A stretch of DNA of 33,399 bases from Clostridiales bacterium (GTDB taxonomy: Bacteria; Bacillota; Clostridia; Mahellales; Mahellaceae), in the NCBI GenBank assembly GCA_030156435.1, contig JASGMM010000028.1, positions 1 to 33,399 on the forward strand, given 5' to 3'. A program made the translations under genes and the position numbers. Shown in pieces: positions 1-33,399 of this stretch; within the stretch, counting starts at the first letter, position 1; every line of letters starts with the position of its first letter. The notes below the pieces were generated by a model. The model worked only from the letters and a program-made list of their open reading frames with translations. It was not told the DNA's origin and did not search any database.

Positions 1-73
1 GACGCCCGACCAGCCGGCACTGAGCATGGACGCGAATTGCCGGCGTTAGCTTGCTCAAGCGAAACGAATTGTA

Positions 74-148
74 AGTACGCCAGCAATATTTCATGAGCGA
101 GCGTAGGCTTTATATCATTGCATGCGCTGAATTTGCCATATTACGAAT
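74..148 (-). repeat. Left copy of a dispersed element, inverted relative to the right window end
   Basis: Read on the minus strand, four blocks occur in the same order as on the plus strand at 33303-33391: ATTCGTAATAT (148-138), a GCAATGATATAAAGCC block (121-106), TGAAATATTGC (93-83) and GGCGTACT (81-74). Spacers between blocks differ by up to 11 bp, so the copies are diverged. The heptamer CGAATTG also occurs at 33-39, 65-71 and 144-150. No reading frame is evident. It could be a dispersed intergenic repeat, a remnant of a mobile element end, or a shared regulatory leader. Confidence 0.6.
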
Positions 149-192
149 TGCAGTACAACAAAAAAGTCATGGATTTTATTCCGCTTATGTTG

Positions 193-243: not shown

Positions 244-3200
244 ATGGAAGAATTAAGGCAACAGTTTGGTAATCCCGGAAAGGACTACAGGAGCGCGCCG
301 TTCTGGTCATGGAACGACAGGTTAAAACCCGAGGAGGTAGCCTGGCAGATCAGGAACATGAAACAGGCCGGCATGGGTGGTTTTTTCATGCACTCGCGCG
401 AGGGGCTGGAAACGCCTTTTATGGGCGAGGAGTGGATGGAATGCGTGAAGGCGGCCGTAGATACGGCCAAAGAGGTGGGTATGAACGCTTGGCTGTACGA
501 CGAGGACCGTTGGCCTTCGGGTTTTGGCGGTGGCATGGTGGCAGCCAAGATAGGCGATGAAGGAAGGGCTAAGTTGCTCACGATGGTGGAATTGGAGCCT
601 GGCCAAAAAGTTGAAAGTGTTTTATCAGCTTTCTACATACAGATGGACGACAAAAAGATAGTATCGCTGGAACAATTGAATTCAGGCGATACTGTAGAGC
701 CCGGCAAGCGCGCCGTGGGCTTTAGGCGCGAGATATGCGCCAAGAGCGACTGGTTCAACGGCGATGCGTATGCTGATAATCTGAATCCTAAAAGCGTGCG
801 AGCCTTTATAGAGTCGGTTTATGAGCCGTATTATGAACGATTCGGTCAGGACTTCGGCAAAACGATACCCGGCATATTTACCGATGAACCTAACATCTTT
901 TCCGGCCACAATCCCGGCATGAAAGGTATACCGTGGACCGATATATTCCCGCAATATTTTAAGCAAAAACGCGGCTACGATATATTACAATTCTTACCGT
1001 ACATATTCTTTGATGGCGATAGATCCATAGAGGTCAGACACGATTATTGGCGCACAATATCGGAATTGTTCGTAGAGGCATACTCCAGACAACTTGGACA
1101 ATGGTGTGATGAGCATGGTTTGGGATTCACCGGCCATTATCTTTATGAAAACGACTTTGCGCGAAGTATAAGGAGCGGCGGCAGCGTGATGCCGCATTAT
1201 CAATATGAACACCAGCCCGGCATAGATATATTGACCGAATCCATAAGCGAAACGCTGACAGTGAAACAATGCAGCAGCATGGCCAATCAATTCGGCCGCA
1301 GCCGCGTGGTGTCGGAGCTTTACGGCTGCACTGGCTGGGACTTCACTTTTGAAGGCCAGAAATGGGTGGGCGACTGGCAGTATGCGCTGGGCGTTAATAT
1401 GCGCTGTCAGCATCTGGCGCTTTATTCACTGCGCGGTTGTCGTAAACGCGACTATCCTGGCTCGTACAATTACAATAATACATGGTGGAAATATAACAAG
1501 GTGGTCGAGGACTACTTCGCGCGCTTGTCGCTTATGCTCTCATCGGGTAAGGTTAAGCGCGACATATTGGTAGTGCACCCTATAGAGAGCGCATGGTGTT
1601 GCTTTAATGGGGCAAACGATAGCGAAGTAGATGAGATGGGGCATTCTTTCCAAAAACTATGCGACGGTATTTTGGCCATGCATCGCGATTTTGATCTTGG
1701 GGATGAATCCATTATAGAGGATTATGGGCGCGTAGACGGCACCGCCTTTATAGTAAATAAAGCGGCATACAAAGCCGTGGTTCTGCCGCCTATGATTACC
1801 ATAAGGCGCAGTACGGCGGATTTATTGAAGGCCTTTATGGATAATGGCGGCAAGGTTATAGCTGTAAAACCATGTCCCACCATGGTAGATGCCCGTCCGG
1901 ACCAGGGGCTGGCCCAACTGTTTGAGCATGGAAATATGAGAGTAGTGGATAATGAGCTTTGCCATATAGAAAAAGCTCTGGACGATATACTGCAGCGCAC
2001 TATAAGTATAGACGATAAAGCCGGGCAACAAGATGAGGCCTTCATATATATGGAGCGCTGTGAGGATAAAGATCACATATTCTTTGTAGTAAATACCGAC
2101 CGCAATAACACCCATAAAGTACGCATCTGGCTAAAAGGTGCAGGGCATATGGAACAATGGGATGCATTGACCGGTGATATCAGGCCGGTAGCCGCCGATG
2201 TCAAAGACGGTTATATGGTGTTTGATGCCGAATTCGGTCCGGCTGCATCCATGCTGTATGTGATAGATGAGAGCCGTCAACCGGCTGATGTAGCATATGA
2301 GCCGGTTAAAGAGGTGGATGCAAGGTATATAGGGCCTGTATGCGACTTTGTCCGTACCGATCCGAATGTGCTTACGTTGGATTATTGCCAGTACCGCTTT
2401 GATGGCGAGGATTGGTCGCCGTTTATGCAGGTGTGGCAGGCGCAGGAGGCCATACGCAAGCGTTTGGGTATGCGCTCTGTAGCCGTCAACGGTTTGGAAC
2501 AGCGCTGGCGTTGGATTTATACGCCGCATCCGAATGATGGGGCTCACGTGCGGCTGCGCTTTGCATTTGATGTAAATGAGCGGCCGGTAGGGCATGTGTA
2601 TTTCCTGGTGGAAAATGCCGAGGACTTCGACATCACATTTGACGATATGCCCATATCCAATGAACCGCATGGCTGGTATCTGGATAAAAGTTTCGATAAA
2701 ATCGAGCTTCCGTTGTTGCTGCCCGGCCGCCATGAAATAGAATTAAGCTGCCGGTACGAGAATCGCATGGAGCTTGAGGATTGTTATATCATAGGCAATT
2801 TTGGCGTAGATCTATTGACCAAAGCCATTATAGCCGAACCCGATAGGCTGCATTTCGGCGACTGGTGTTTGCAAGGTTATCCTAATTACCCGGGCGGCAT
2901 GATATATAAAGAAAAGGTAGAGTTGCATATAAAAGACGGGCAGAGGGTATATATCGATTTGGGCGAATACAGGGCTACTACGGTAGCTATATGGGTCAAC
3001 GGGCGCATAGCAGCGCATATACCGTGGCGCGCCGCCGATAACGCTGATATAACTGAATTCCTTCACGATGGCGTAAATGAGATAGGCATAGAGATGATGG
3101 GCAGCCCAAGGAATATGATGGGTCCGCTGCATCAAAAGAGCGGCAAACGCCCATGGACTGATTCACGATCATTCCGTACTACCGGCTATGAATTTACGCC

Positions 3201-3261
3201 CGACGAGGTGTTGGTGCCGGAAGGGTGCCTTGATCAGATTAAACTTTCGATAGTCCAGTGA
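244..3261 (+). CDS. GH106-like glycoside hydrolase (alpha-L-rhamnosidase-related)
   Basis: This 1005-residue protein is probably a cytoplasmic glycosidase that removes terminal sugars from imported plant oligosaccharides. It has no signal peptide. The N-terminal part has the typical run of the GH106-like group: FWSWNDRL (20-27), GGFFMHSREGL (45-55) and YDEDRWPSG (85-93). Carboxylates in FTDEPN (D214, E215) and SELYG (E358) are candidate catalytic residues; this assignment is by family resemblance only. The C-terminal third resembles beta-galactosidase-type jelly-roll domains (GDWCLQGYPNYPGG, then WVNG). The ATG at 244 follows GGGGG by about 11 bases. The gene stands alone, so context does not name the substrate. 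Rhamnosidase is the best guess; galacturonan- or other hexose-directed members of the same broad group are possible. Confidence 0.75.
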   Translation: MEELRQQFGNPGKDYRSAPFWSWNDRLKPEEVAWQIRNMKQAGMGGFFMHSREGLETPFMGEEWMECVKAAVDTAKEVGMNAWLYDEDRWPSGFGGGMVAAKIGDEGRAKLLTMVELEPGQKVESVLSAFYIQMDDKKIVSLEQLNSGDTVEPGKRAVGFRREICAKSDWFNGDAYADNLNPKSVRAFIESVYEPYYERFGQDFGKTIPGIFTDEPNIFSGHNPGMKGIPWTDIFPQYFKQKRGYDILQFLPYIFFDGDRSIEVRHDYWRTISELFVEAYSRQLGQWCDEHGLGFTGHYLYENDFARSIRSGGSVMPHYQYEHQPGIDILTESISETLTVKQCSSMANQFGRSRVVSELYGCTGWDFTFEGQKWVGDWQYALGVNMRCQHLALYSLRGCRKRDYPGSYNYNNTWWKYNKVVEDYFARLSLMLSSGKVKRDILVVHPIESAWCCFNGANDSEVDEMGHSFQKLCDGILAMHRDFDLGDESIIEDYGRVDGTAFIVNKAAYKAVVLPPMITIRRSTADLLKAFMDNGGKVIAVKPCPTMVDARPDQGLAQLFEHGNMRVVDNELCHIEKALDDILQRTISIDDKAGQQDEAFIYMERCEDKDHIFFVVNTDRNNTHKVRIWLKGAGHMEQWDALTGDIRPVAADVKDGYMVFDAEFGPAASMLYVIDESRQPADVAYEPVKEVDARYIGPVCDFVRTDPNVLTLDYCQYRFDGEDWSPFMQVWQAQEAIRKRLGMRSVAVNGLEQRWRWIYTPHPNDGAHVRLRFAFDVNERPVGHVYFLVENAEDFDITFDDMPISNEPHGWYLDKSFDKIELPLLLPGRHEIELSCRYENRMELEDCYIIGNFGVDLLTKAIIAEPDRLHFGDWCLQGYPNYPGGMIYKEKVELHIKDGQRVYIDLGEYRATTVAIWVNGRIAAHIPWRAADNADITEFLHDGVNEIGIEMMGSPRNMMGPLHQKSGKRPWTDSRSFRTTGYEFTPDEVLVPEGCLDQIKLSIVQ

Positions 3262-10688: not shown

Positions 10689-10730
10689 TGTATCATGAAA
10701 ATTGTATACATAATTCGTTAAAGGCTATGA

Positions 10731-10983
10731 AGGGGAGAGTAGCTATCATATAGGAGCTTACAGAGAGCCGGGCCGAAGCTGAGAACCGGTAGCGCGGTGA
10801 TAGCAAAAGTAGCCCTGGAGTTGCTGAACTGAAATATAAATATAGAGTAGGTTCAGACGGAAGCGCCCGTTATAAGCGCAGGGTATATTTATATGTACCT
10901 GCGGAGGTTGTTGCCGCGAGGCAGCAATAAAATTGGGTGGTAACACGAAATATAACCTTTCGTCCCTATAAGGACGGAGGGTT
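10731..10983 (+). promoter_or_regulatory. T-box riboswitch leader, probably valine-specific
   Basis: This leader senses uncharged tRNA and controls ilvB by antitermination. Stem I is visible: GCTATCA (10742-10748) pairs with TGATAGC (10798-10804), below it GGG pairs with CCC (10813-10815), and the apical part has the conserved AGAGAG at about 10772. The specifier loop has the loop-E element AGTA on the 5' side; on the 3' side AAAAGTAG gives GUA (Val, 10809-10811) as best specifier. The T-box sequence GGGTGGTAACACG (10935-10947) carries the UGG bulge with U10941 next to it, which pairs with discriminator A73. That excludes Ser (G73), the other possible register (AGU). A valine signal fits acetolactate synthase. 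Confidence 0.9.
10954..10983 (+). terminator. T-box attenuator terminator
   Basis: AACCTTTCGTCC (10954-10965) pairs over all 12 bases, with two G-U pairs, with GGACGGAGGGTT (10972-10983) around a six-base loop, followed by TTATTTATATT. Its 5' arm would otherwise pair with the T-box sequence to form the antiterminator. Confidence 0.85.
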
Positions 10984-11042: not shown

Positions 11043-12734
11043 ATGAAAATAACCGGAGCAGAAGCTATCATAAAGTGTTTGGAAGAACAGGGAGTCGATC
11101 TGATATTTGGCTACCCGGGTGGCGCTGTTTTGCCCTTGTATGATGCGCTTTACGGTTCCAATATAACGCATATATTGCCATGCCATGAACAGGCGGCCAC
11201 GCATGCGGCTGACGGCTACGCCAGAGCCAGCGGCAAGGTGGGGGTGGTATTTGCTACTTCCGGGCCAGGTGCCACCAATACCGTTACCGGTATTGCCAAT
11301 GCATATATGGATTCAGTGCCAATGGTAGTCTTTACAGGTCAGGTGGCATTATCGCTGCTGGGCAAGGATTCTTTCCAAGAGGTAGATATAACAGGCATTA
11401 CCATGCCGATTACGAAACATAATTATATAGTGAAAGATGCCCAGCGTTTGCCGAACATAATAAGGGAGGCTTTTAATATAGCCCGTTCAGGACGACCCGG
11501 TCCGGTGCTTATAGATGTGCCTAAAGATATGCAGACTACTTTACTGGACTATGAGCCTATGTCAGTATCTGTCGAATATGAGAGTTGTAATATATACAGC
11601 AAGACATGTATGGATGAAGACGAGTTAAAAGCAAACATAAACCAAGCTGCACGTCTCCTGTCAGAGGCCAACAGCCCGGTTATATATGCTGGCGGCGGCG
11701 TTATAATATCGCGTGCTCATGAGGAACTGAGGGCGTTTGCTGAGAAACTGAAGATTCCGGTGGTTTCTTCCCTTATGGGTCTTGGCGGATTTCCTGCCAA
11801 CCATCCGCTTTTTCTGGGATTGGTAGGCATGCATGGCAGCCGTTATGCGAACTATACGGTGTCCAACAGCGATGTGTTAATAGCTATAGGGGCGAGGTTT
11901 AGCGACAGGGTTATAAGCAACGTGCGACGCTTCGCACCAAATGCTAAGATAATCCATATAGATATAGATCCGGCCGAGCTCGGGAAAAATATTAGAGTAG
12001 ATGTGCCGATAAACGGCGATGTCAAGACGATATTGAAGGAATTATTGGATATGGTGCCCGAAAAAGCTTTCAACGGGTGGAATAAACAGGTGCAGCAATG
12101 GAGAGAACAGTATAAGCTAAAAACAGATTTTGGCTCGGGACAGCTAAAACCTCAATATATCGTTCAGAAGATATATGAATTGACACAGGGCTTTGGCATA
12201 GTGACCACTGAGGTAGGTCAAAATCAGATATGGGCCGCTCAGTATTTTAATTATGCAGAGCCTCGAAGCTTTATCTCATCAGGTGGCTTGGGTACAATGG
12301 GGTACGGTTTGCCCGCCGCTATAGGAGCGCAGCTTGCCAGACCCGATAGACGCGTTATAAACGTGGCTGGCGATGGAAGTTTTAAGATGAATTCGAATGA
12401 ATTATCGACGGCTGTTAAGTATAAGTTACCCATTGTAGAAGTGATTTTAAATAACCATGCTTTGGGTATGGTAAGGCAATGGCAACGGCTGTTCTATCAA
12501 GGCCGTTTCTCGCATACGACATTGGGCGTTGACACCGACTTCGTTAAATTGGCGCAGGCGCATGGAGCGGAGGCTTTGAGAATAACCAAGAATGAAGAAG
12601 TGGAGGATGCGTTAAGGCATGCTTTGTCTATCACCGACCGGCCCACGCTTATAGAGTGCGATATAGACAACGATGAAAAGGCGTATCCTATGGTGGCACC
12701 GGGTGCGGGTATAGATGAAATAATAGATGAATAA
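11043..12734 (+). CDS. ilvB: Acetolactate synthase, large (catalytic) subunit
   Basis: This 563-residue ThDP enzyme joins two pyruvates to acetolactate (valine, leucine) or pyruvate with 2-ketobutyrate (isoleucine). Seen are the three family domains: the N-terminal Pyr domain with catalytic E49 in CHEQAATHAADGYARASG, a central FAD/Rossmann-like domain, and the C-terminal ThDP motif from GDGSF (G443-D444) to NN about 28 residues later. Residues GYPGGAVLPLYDAL (23-36) and the FQEVD region support biosynthetic IlvB rather than pyruvate oxidase. Length is typical. The start fixes the N-terminus MKITGAEAI. No ilvN regulatory-subunit gene follows, unlike most biosynthetic loci; it may be elsewhere. 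The T-box leader upstream provides amino-acid control. Confidence 0.93.
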   Translation: MKITGAEAIIKCLEEQGVDLIFGYPGGAVLPLYDALYGSNITHILPCHEQAATHAADGYARASGKVGVVFATSGPGATNTVTGIANAYMDSVPMVVFTGQVALSLLGKDSFQEVDITGITMPITKHNYIVKDAQRLPNIIREAFNIARSGRPGPVLIDVPKDMQTTLLDYEPMSVSVEYESCNIYSKTCMDEDELKANINQAARLLSEANSPVIYAGGGVIISRAHEELRAFAEKLKIPVVSSLMGLGGFPANHPLFLGLVGMHGSRYANYTVSNSDVLIAIGARFSDRVISNVRRFAPNAKIIHIDIDPAELGKNIRVDVPINGDVKTILKELLDMVPEKAFNGWNKQVQQWREQYKLKTDFGSGQLKPQYIVQKIYELTQGFGIVTTEVGQNQIWAAQYFNYAEPRSFISSGGLGTMGYGLPAAIGAQLARPDRRVINVAGDGSFKMNSNELSTAVKYKLPIVEVILNNHALGMVRQWQRLFYQGRFSHTTLGVDTDFVKLAQAHGAEALRITKNEEVEDALRHALSITDRPTLIECDIDNDEKAYPMVAPGAGIDEIIDE

Positions 12735-31679: not shown

Positions 31680-32264
31680 TTATATTGTAGATTTTGCCAC
31701 CATGTCAGCAAAATACCGGTGAAAGCTGAGATCGTCGGTCAGTTCAGGATGAAACGACGTAGCCAAAAGATTGCCTTGTCGTACAGCTATGATCTTGTCG
31801 TCGAGCTCCGCTAATATCTCGGTGCCACCATCAGCTTTCTCAACATAAGGGGCTCTTATAAATACCAACGGTATGGGATATTCGGCTACTGCGGGAATAA
31901 GCAGGGTAGTTTTGAAGCTGTCCAATTGACTGCCGTAAGCATTGCGCCTGACGTATATATCCATGAGGCCCAGATGGACCTTGTCATCATTGATTATATG
32001 TTTGGCCAGGAGGATCATGCCGGCACATGTACCCCATATAGGCATGCCGGCACGAGCCCTCTCTATGATTTTATCTTTGAGGTTATAATCGGTTATAAGC
32101 CGCCCTATAGTCGTACTTTCGCCACCCGGCAGAATCAAGCCGTCTATAACATCCAGGTCGTCTCGTGTTTTAACCTGTATCGGTTCTACATCTTCGAGAC
32201 GTTCGAGCATTATGGTATGTTCTATGACCGAACCCTGCAGGCCCAGTATACCTATACGCAGCAT
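31680..32264 (-). CDS. pdxT: Pyridoxal 5'-phosphate synthase, glutaminase subunit
   Basis: This 194-residue class I glutamine amidotransferase releases ammonia from glutamine and passes it to PdxS. The catalytic triad is C80 (WGTCAGM), H172 and E174 (SFHPEL); PGGES (46-50) binds glutamine. The N-terminal MLRIGILGLQGSVIEH is typical. It begins four bases after the pdxS stop codon, in the usual pdxS-pdxT order, so the two are co-translated from one mRNA. Twelve PdxT subunits surround a PdxS dodecamer in the known complex. Confidence 0.95.
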   Translation of the reverse strand: MLRIGILGLQGSVIEHTIMLERLEDVEPIQVKTRDDLDVIDGLILPGGESTTIGRLITDYNLKDKIIERARAGMPIWGTCAGMILLAKHIINDDKVHLGLMDIYVRRNAYGSQLDSFKTTLLIPAVAEYPIPLVFIRAPYVEKADGGTEILAELDDKIIAVRQGNLLATSFHPELTDDLSFHRYFADMVAKSTI

Positions 32265-32268
32265 GCGG

Positions 32269-33150
32269 TTACCAGCCTCTTTCGGCCATGCGCTGTGCAG
32301 TCTCTATCTGGCTTATCTCTAAGCCGGGCATGGCCTCGCCCAGATCCTCTGAAACCTCGGCAAGAACCTTCGGATCATTATAATAGGTTACCGCTTTGAC
32401 AATGGCCTCGGCACGTTTAGCTGGATTAGCCGATTTGAAGATACCGGATCCTACAAATACGCCATCGGCTCCGAGCTGCATCATAAGTGCCGCATCAGCG
32501 GGTGTGGCTACACCGCCAGCTGCGAAATTGACCACCGGCAATCTGCCATGCTCAGCTACATATACTACCAGATCATATGGGGCTTGCATCTCTTTGGCGG
32601 CCGACATCAACTCTTCTTTGGGCATGCCTTGGAGTTTTCTTATCTCGTCCATGACCGTGCGCATATGGCGTACGGCTTCTACCACATTGCCTGTACCGGC
32701 TTCACCCTTGGTCCTTATCATGGAGGCCCCTTCGCCAATACGCCTCAAGGCTTCGCCGAGGTTACGCGCGCCGCATACGAAAGGTATCTTGAAATCCCAT
32801 TTGTTGATATGATACATCTCATCGGCGGGAGTCAGCACCTCGCTTTCGTCGATATAATCGATACCCAGTGCCTCCAATATCTGGGCCTCTACAAAATGCC
32901 CTATTCTAGCCTTAGCCATAACAGGAATGCTTACCGCGCTCTTTATCTCTTTTATTATCTTGGGGTCGGACATACGCGCTACACCACCCTGTTTACGTAT
33001 ATCGGCCGGTACCCTCTCCAAAGCCATGACGGCTACCGCACCGGCTTTCTCGGCTATTTGTGCCTGCTCGGCGTTGGTGACATCCATTATTACGCCGCCT
33101 TTTAACATTTGGGCGAGGTTCTTGTTTAATTCATATCGTTCTTTATCCAT
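32269..33150 (-). CDS. pdxS: Pyridoxal 5'-phosphate synthase, synthase subunit
   Basis: This 293-residue (beta/alpha)8 enzyme makes PLP from ribose-5-phosphate, glyceraldehyde-3-phosphate and ammonia. Catalytic lysine K80 lies in [13 protein letters not shown], with D23 ([13 protein letters not shown]) as partner (D24 and K81 in B. subtilis). The phosphate-binding region from [16 protein letters not shown] and the second lysine region follow. AAAGGA lies about 13 bases before ATG 33150, somewhat far. The promoter region upstream is rich in palindromes, suggesting regulation, perhaps by a PLP-sensing regulator encoded divergently outside the window. Confidence 0.96.
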
Positions 33151-33176
33151 AGATCTTATATCATCCTTTCTTTGAC

Positions 33177-33205
33177 TTTACAAAATTATAATAATGCAGT
33201 ATAAT
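33177..33205 (+). promoter_or_regulatory. Divergent sigma-A promoter reading out of the window
   Basis: On the plus strand TTTACA (33177-33182), 17 bp, TATAAT (33200-33205). It would transcribe away from pdxS toward the right end. No gene start is visible in the remaining 190 bases, so its target, if any, lies outside. Confidence 0.5.
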
Positions 33206-33224
33206 GTATCGATACAATTGTATC
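33205..33224. promoter_or_regulatory. Overlapping palindromes in the pdxS upstream region
   Basis: TGTATCGATACA (33205-33216) and GATACAATTGTATC (33211-33224) are perfect palindromes sharing a half-site, so GTATC/GATAC occurs three times. They lie in the pdxS leader and at the -10 of the divergent promoter, a good place for a shared repressor. Confidence 0.5.
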
Positions 33225-33248
33225 ATATTATGTATGATTTTTAGTGTT

Positions 33249-33277
33249 ATTATGACACAAAGTCACGCATGTGTCAA
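33249..33277 (-). promoter_or_regulatory. Sigma-A promoter of pdxS-pdxT with an embedded inverted repeat
   Basis: On the minus strand TTGACA (33277-33272), 17 bp, CATAAT (33254-33249), about 100 bases before the pdxS start. TGACACA (33253-33259) and TGTGTCA (33270-33276) form a perfect 7-bp inverted repeat that overlaps both hexamers and could be an operator. Confidence 0.65.
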
Positions 33278-33302
33278 TATTGGATTTTAACATGTTTCTT
33301 CG

Positions 33303-33391
33303 ATTCGTAATATATAACTGAAACGGGCGATATAAAGCGATGCAAATGATATAAAGCCGGAGAACGCCTTGAAATATTGCGTAGGCGTACT
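33303..33391 (+). repeat. Right copy of the dispersed element (inverted relative to 74-148)
   Basis: Blocks ATTCGTAATAT (33303-33313), GCAAATGATATAAAGCC (33342-33358), TGAAATATTGC (33370-33380) and GGCGTACT (33384-33391) match the left-end copy in order and orientation after reverse complementing. This copy has an extra GATATAAAGC at 33329-33338, so the element has a small internal duplication. It continues to or past the window end. Confidence 0.6.
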
Positions 33392-33399
33392 CAATGAGT

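Follow-up and report, generated by a model that had tools for sequence, protein, structure and literature searches.

The related sequences at the two edges of the 33,399-bp stretch analyzed here (the window) are, with little doubt, parts of two separate insertions of a miniature inverted-repeat transposable element (MITE) of Mahella, a non-coding, palindromic element with CTKYRATTCGTAATAT ends and target site duplications of about 8 to 9 bp. This reading is built on direct observations: the ends and duplications, the number of copies, sites that are empty in relatives, and contigs that break off within the repeat. It also explains why the contig ends at its present limits, which are assembly breaks and not island borders: the window is exactly contig C80, one of 104 contigs in a Mahella draft genome of 2,194,021 bp (G000). 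The elements are ordinary MITEs, and the Mahella family to which they belong is probably undescribed; a literature search returned no paper joining Mahella with miniature inverted-repeat transposable elements, publications on Mahella and transposons contain nothing on Mahella repeats in their titles and abstract openings, and further queries brought up nothing on the family. Our analysis thus contributes a MITE family at the level of the genus, together with a plausible parent transposon, and of this family only the modular interiors might look fresh to a specialist.

RESULTS

The two contig edges carry opposite halves of one element

Local alignment of the reverse complement of window 74-153 with 33298-33392 scored 36.5, against a maximum of 17.5 in 2,000 mononucleotide shuffles. 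The shared edge blocks that a first-pass annotation had judged to be beyond chance are thus real, with limits (148 and 33303) that move about 5 bases further out, to the element edges proper at 153 and 33298. A 16-bp end common to both edges opens the alignment (CTGCAATTCGTAATAT and CTTCGATTCGTAATAT). The same annotation had proposed searching the genome with both segments, and further copies were found: 44 places for the left-edge query, the right edge among them (79%, E value 9e-4), and 27 for the right-edge query.

Both edges match the complete 285-bp copy L020:996-1280 on the plus strand at about 95% identity, each over a different portion (Table 1). They are opposite halves of one element type, belong to two separate copies, and lie in direct orientation. 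The apparent inversion stems from the element itself, an imperfect palindrome whose halves are diverged copies of one another in opposite orientation; thus, of the earlier description of inverted copies of one element, the likeness stands and the inverted placement does not.

Table 1. Coordinates of the MITE-derived and neighboring features in the window
Feature	Position	Strand	Evidence
Contig start within a MITE copy: right-hand portion, 133-285 of the 285-bp form	1..153	+	95% over 153 bases to L020:996-1280; multi-copy
Terminal inverted repeat CTGCAATTCGTAATAT, edge facing GH106-type gene	138..153	-	Exact pattern match; M. australiensis similarity from 160
Glycoside hydrolase gene, PF17132 (alpha-L-rhamnosidase) match, adjoins left-edge copy	244..3261	+	
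pdxT (SNO)	31680-32264		
pdxS (SOR/SNZ family), adjoins right-edge copy	32269..33150	-	
Target site duplication AACATGTTT, right-edge copy	33289..33297	.	Once in empty M. australiensis site, twice here
Contig end within another MITE copy: left-hand portion, 1-102 of the 285-bp form	33298..33399	+	95% over 97 bases to L020:996-1280; multi-copy
Terminal inverted repeat CTTCGATTCGTAATAT, right-edge copy	33298..33313	+	Exact pattern match

The repeats have the ends, target duplications, and copy number of a MITE family

Each copy is flanked at both ends by terminal inverted repeats (CTKYRATTCGTAATAT). Copies measure 55 to 614 bp, too short for a 467-aa transposase, and lie at about 48 places, counting the retrieved loci of the own genome and the window. 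Retrieved loci were counted as complete copies if the two ends, each matched with at most 2 substitutions, lay no more than 700 bp apart and neither flank was missing; single-ended copies were left out. Exact flanking repeats of at least 7 nt, mostly target site duplications of 8 to 9 nt, border 22 of the 36 copies defined in this way, compared with 6 of 1,260 controls in which left and right flanks were mispaired; five copies have flanking repeats of 4 to 6 nt only, and nine have none of at least 4 nt. Of the 36 insertion points, 3 interrupt an open frame 150 aa or more in length. Terminal-repeat half-sites number 64 in M. australiensis versus 1 for the reversed pattern, and 74 versus 19 in the own genome at up to 2 mismatches, where the looser matches are partly due to chance. 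The element is predicted to fold as a single long hairpin of -127.2 kcal/mol, and none of 200 shuffles was as stable (z -8.5). A DNA-level search of 60 genomes, including the own genome, matched the MITE in three only, all of the same genus.

Some insertions are absent from orthologous sites in relatives

Two relatives were compared, what appears to be a Mahella metagenome-assembled genome (MAG; G001) and M. australiensis (G002; a single contig of 3,135,972 bp). When the flanks of the insertions L020 and L030 were joined, the element was absent and one copy of the target duplication was present in both genomes (4/4 comparisons), so that these insertions are polymorphic between relatives. The single target copy at these empty sites is ATTTGCCAT in G002 (locally changed in G001) and approximately AAAACATATGTT in both. 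Four of six joined sites are less clean: L014 and L029 show local differences in G002, L029 has DNA between the flanks in G001, and the junctions of L033 and L042 are not clear-cut.

At the right edge of the window, the sequence upstream of pdxS in M. australiensis reads TTTTAACATGTTTTATAGG, has no element, and runs directly into the orthologue of the end of contig C22 (L023; 95% over 1,012 bp). The own genome has AACATGTTT twice: immediately before the terminal repeat at 33298, and again on C22, where two bases separate it from the other end of the element. C80 and C22 are therefore very probably linked through the right-edge element. On one side of this copy is pdxS (start at 33150); on the other is a divergent gene for a MocR-type regulator, with the insertion about 20 bp before its start codon. 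In M. australiensis, the orthologue of this regulator combines a GntR with an aminotransferase domain, the MocR/PdxR layout. The corresponding pdxS/MocR-type interval of G001 (L172 1802-2168) holds repeat-like DNA near the MITE site of the own genome.

Next to the left-edge copy, M. australiensis matches from window position 160 onward, consistent with an empty site. The counterparts of the window flanks 154-453 and 32998-33297 in M. australiensis (C1:177964 and C1:2394924) are separated by about 2.2 Mb, which points to a rearrangement breakpoint, probably inside the window or its counterpart.

Contigs break inside the element

Among the retrieved loci, 20 further contig ends of the own genome fall in the same element or no more than 5 bp from it. 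The near identity of the element core across many copies would be what halted assembly on either side of C80. In M. australiensis, one copy spans the gap between C53 and C56 and another that between C14 and C8, suggesting, together with the right-edge junction, three scaffold joins (C80-C22, C53-C56, and C14-C8). In addition, the contig ends of C13, C57, and C93 stop 94 to 104 bp into other sequence with the same terminal repeat. These three stretches (C13:16356-16459, C57:1-99, and C93:1-99; L116, L119, and L117) carry identical sequence behind that repeat (CTKCRATTCGTAATATGAATAGTGGCGG...), with an interior unlike that of the MITE, and possibly represent a resident autonomous copy or a second MITE. 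A 51-bp unit in a Mahella MAG (L133 3382-3432) joins an end of the C13/C57/C93 type to a MITE-type end, linking both.

An IS4-type insertion sequence is the probable parent

M. australiensis contains two decayed PF01609 transposase genes with an end, CTGCGATTCGTRATTT, just past the coding region, and a protein query from one of these relics matched 4 of 391 genomes of the class at 1e-15. In G317, from another clostridial family, the match falls on a 467-aa open frame within a 1,525-bp unit with the ends CTTCAATTCGTAATTT and CTGTAATTCGTAATAT. These match the MITE ends and vary at the same positions 3 to 5, and they played no part in finding the unit. An apparently intact autonomous transposon that shares the ends of the MITE is present in G317, whereas M. 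australiensis yielded only relics. The G317 protein matches PF01609 (DDE_Tnp_1) at 56.2 bits (cut-off, 23), and its best NCBIfam model is IS4 (NF033592, IS4_1) at 80.2 bits, below the cut-off of 115; we therefore call this outlying IS4 member “IS4-type” and do not assign it to IS4.

Judged from these sequences, the MITE probably has as its parent this IS4-type insertion sequence with a DDE transposase, which is decayed in M. australiensis and seems to be intact in G317; that transposase would move the MITEs in trans by recognizing the common terminal repeat. No clean target duplication was found for the G317 unit, and no transposase of the G317 kind was found in the own genome or G001. The search for a parent from single terminal repeats in M. 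australiensis gave no outcome for most sites. Other candidates fell away because matching ends on either side of the gene were missing, as at the PF00872 (IS256) loci and at most PF01609 loci. The insertion sequence end pattern had no match in viral contigs and one in genome contigs, in a Mahella MAG.

Interiors of the element are modular

In seven orthologous pairs picked for matching flanks, the set to which the comparison of interiors was confined, interiors differ in 7/7, mostly by loss of hairpin segments; those of L122 and L086 are almost wholly different while the flanks are orthologous. Interiors do not always differ, since L046 and L092 are 99.7% identical throughout. A 106-bp hairpin module (GGCTTGACATATAT...ATATATGTCAAGCC) has 27, 19, and 35 matches in G000, G001, and G002, and it also occurs outside MITE ends (L187-L206): of 20 inspected places with no end match nearby, several are bordered by a second repeated sequence (CACTTCGCTAAGTTTCACC...) and others hold the module alone.

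The palindromic interior would be reshaped after insertion, mainly by loss of hairpin modules. More tentatively, and with the odds against it, Mahella may harbor a modular palindrome system in which modules sit in the MITE, beside the second repeat, or alone, and are deleted or exchanged between resident elements separately from transposition; exchange would then proceed by conversion or template switching at hairpins. If so, interiors would change at a fixed site, as between L122 and L086, independently of transposition. With filled and empty sites and differing interiors, the Mahella relatives form a usable natural series for studying how palindromic elements shrink or exchange parts.

DISCUSSION

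For the related edges, the first-pass annotation had offered a large mobile island, a repeat family such as BIME or MITE, a regulatory leader of outward genes, and contigs broken off in a repeat. The repeat family of the MITE-like kind is borne out by terminal repeats, target duplications, and dozens of copies, and the contig-end option holds as well, with C80 ending inside the element at both sides as 20 other contig ends do. A single large mobile island, spanning the window and enclosed by a pair of inverted ends, would account for related sequences at both edges, but there are dozens of copies, the edges come from two distinct elements in direct orientation and represent opposite halves, and the contig ends lie inside repeats; moreover, the right-edge junction is empty in M. 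australiensis, and its far side leads on to C22. A single pair of ends around cargo with one common duplication was not found, and we give the island practically no chance.

It is also very unlikely that the repeats are a regulatory RNA leader upstream of outward genes. The great stability of the predicted hairpin and the copy close to the regulator start codon would fit a leader, but as an account of the family it fails on copies with defined ends formed by terminal repeats, on their target duplications, and on the existence of empty sites. Among 12 aligned full-length copies, both sides changed with pairing kept in 2/95 pairs, and with such minimal covariation nothing here indicates that the hairpin is kept by selection; the Rfam match in the window is only a T-box elsewhere (10718-10970). 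Single insertions may have a local effect on neighboring genes. About equally improbable is a family of REP/BIME-type palindromes mobilized by a RAYT (Y1) transposase, which shares with our repeats a high copy number, a palindromic and mostly intergenic nature, and, in one hairpin module, occurrence outside MITE ends. Against it stand the unit length of 55 to 614 bp, the defined ends of 16 bp, and the 8- to 9-bp duplications, as well as the finding that the insertion sequence with matching ends is of the DDE (PF01609) type. MITE insertions thus remain the preferred reading of both edges.

Bacterial MITEs derived from insertion sequences, such as QMITE2 of Coxiella, are the subject of a review (PMC10969869). 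As portrayed in that review, QMITE2-like MITEs and the Mahella MITE are alike in being short and non-coding, with terminal inverted repeats, direct repeats of 7 to 9 bp, a stable hairpin, many copies, and related transposon ends (PMC10969869). In contrast to QMITE2, to which it is unrelated in sequence and host as far as tested, the Mahella MITE has interiors that are mosaics of several hairpin modules. The IS4-type insertion sequence of G317 shares the terminal repeat of the MITE, including variation at the same positions, and differs in carrying a transposase gene, which the MITE lacks. BOX elements are modular, hairpin-forming interspersed repeats of varying length, and the Mahella MITE resembles them in its modular hairpin repeats, a likeness drawn from this general description and not from module sequences. 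The BOX elements of Streptococcus pneumoniae (PMC3049150) serve here as the comparison repeats.

Elsewhere in the window, the T-box leader (plus strand; Rfam RF00230, 121.9 bits) lies upstream of a thiamine-pyrophosphate enzyme gene at 11043-12734.
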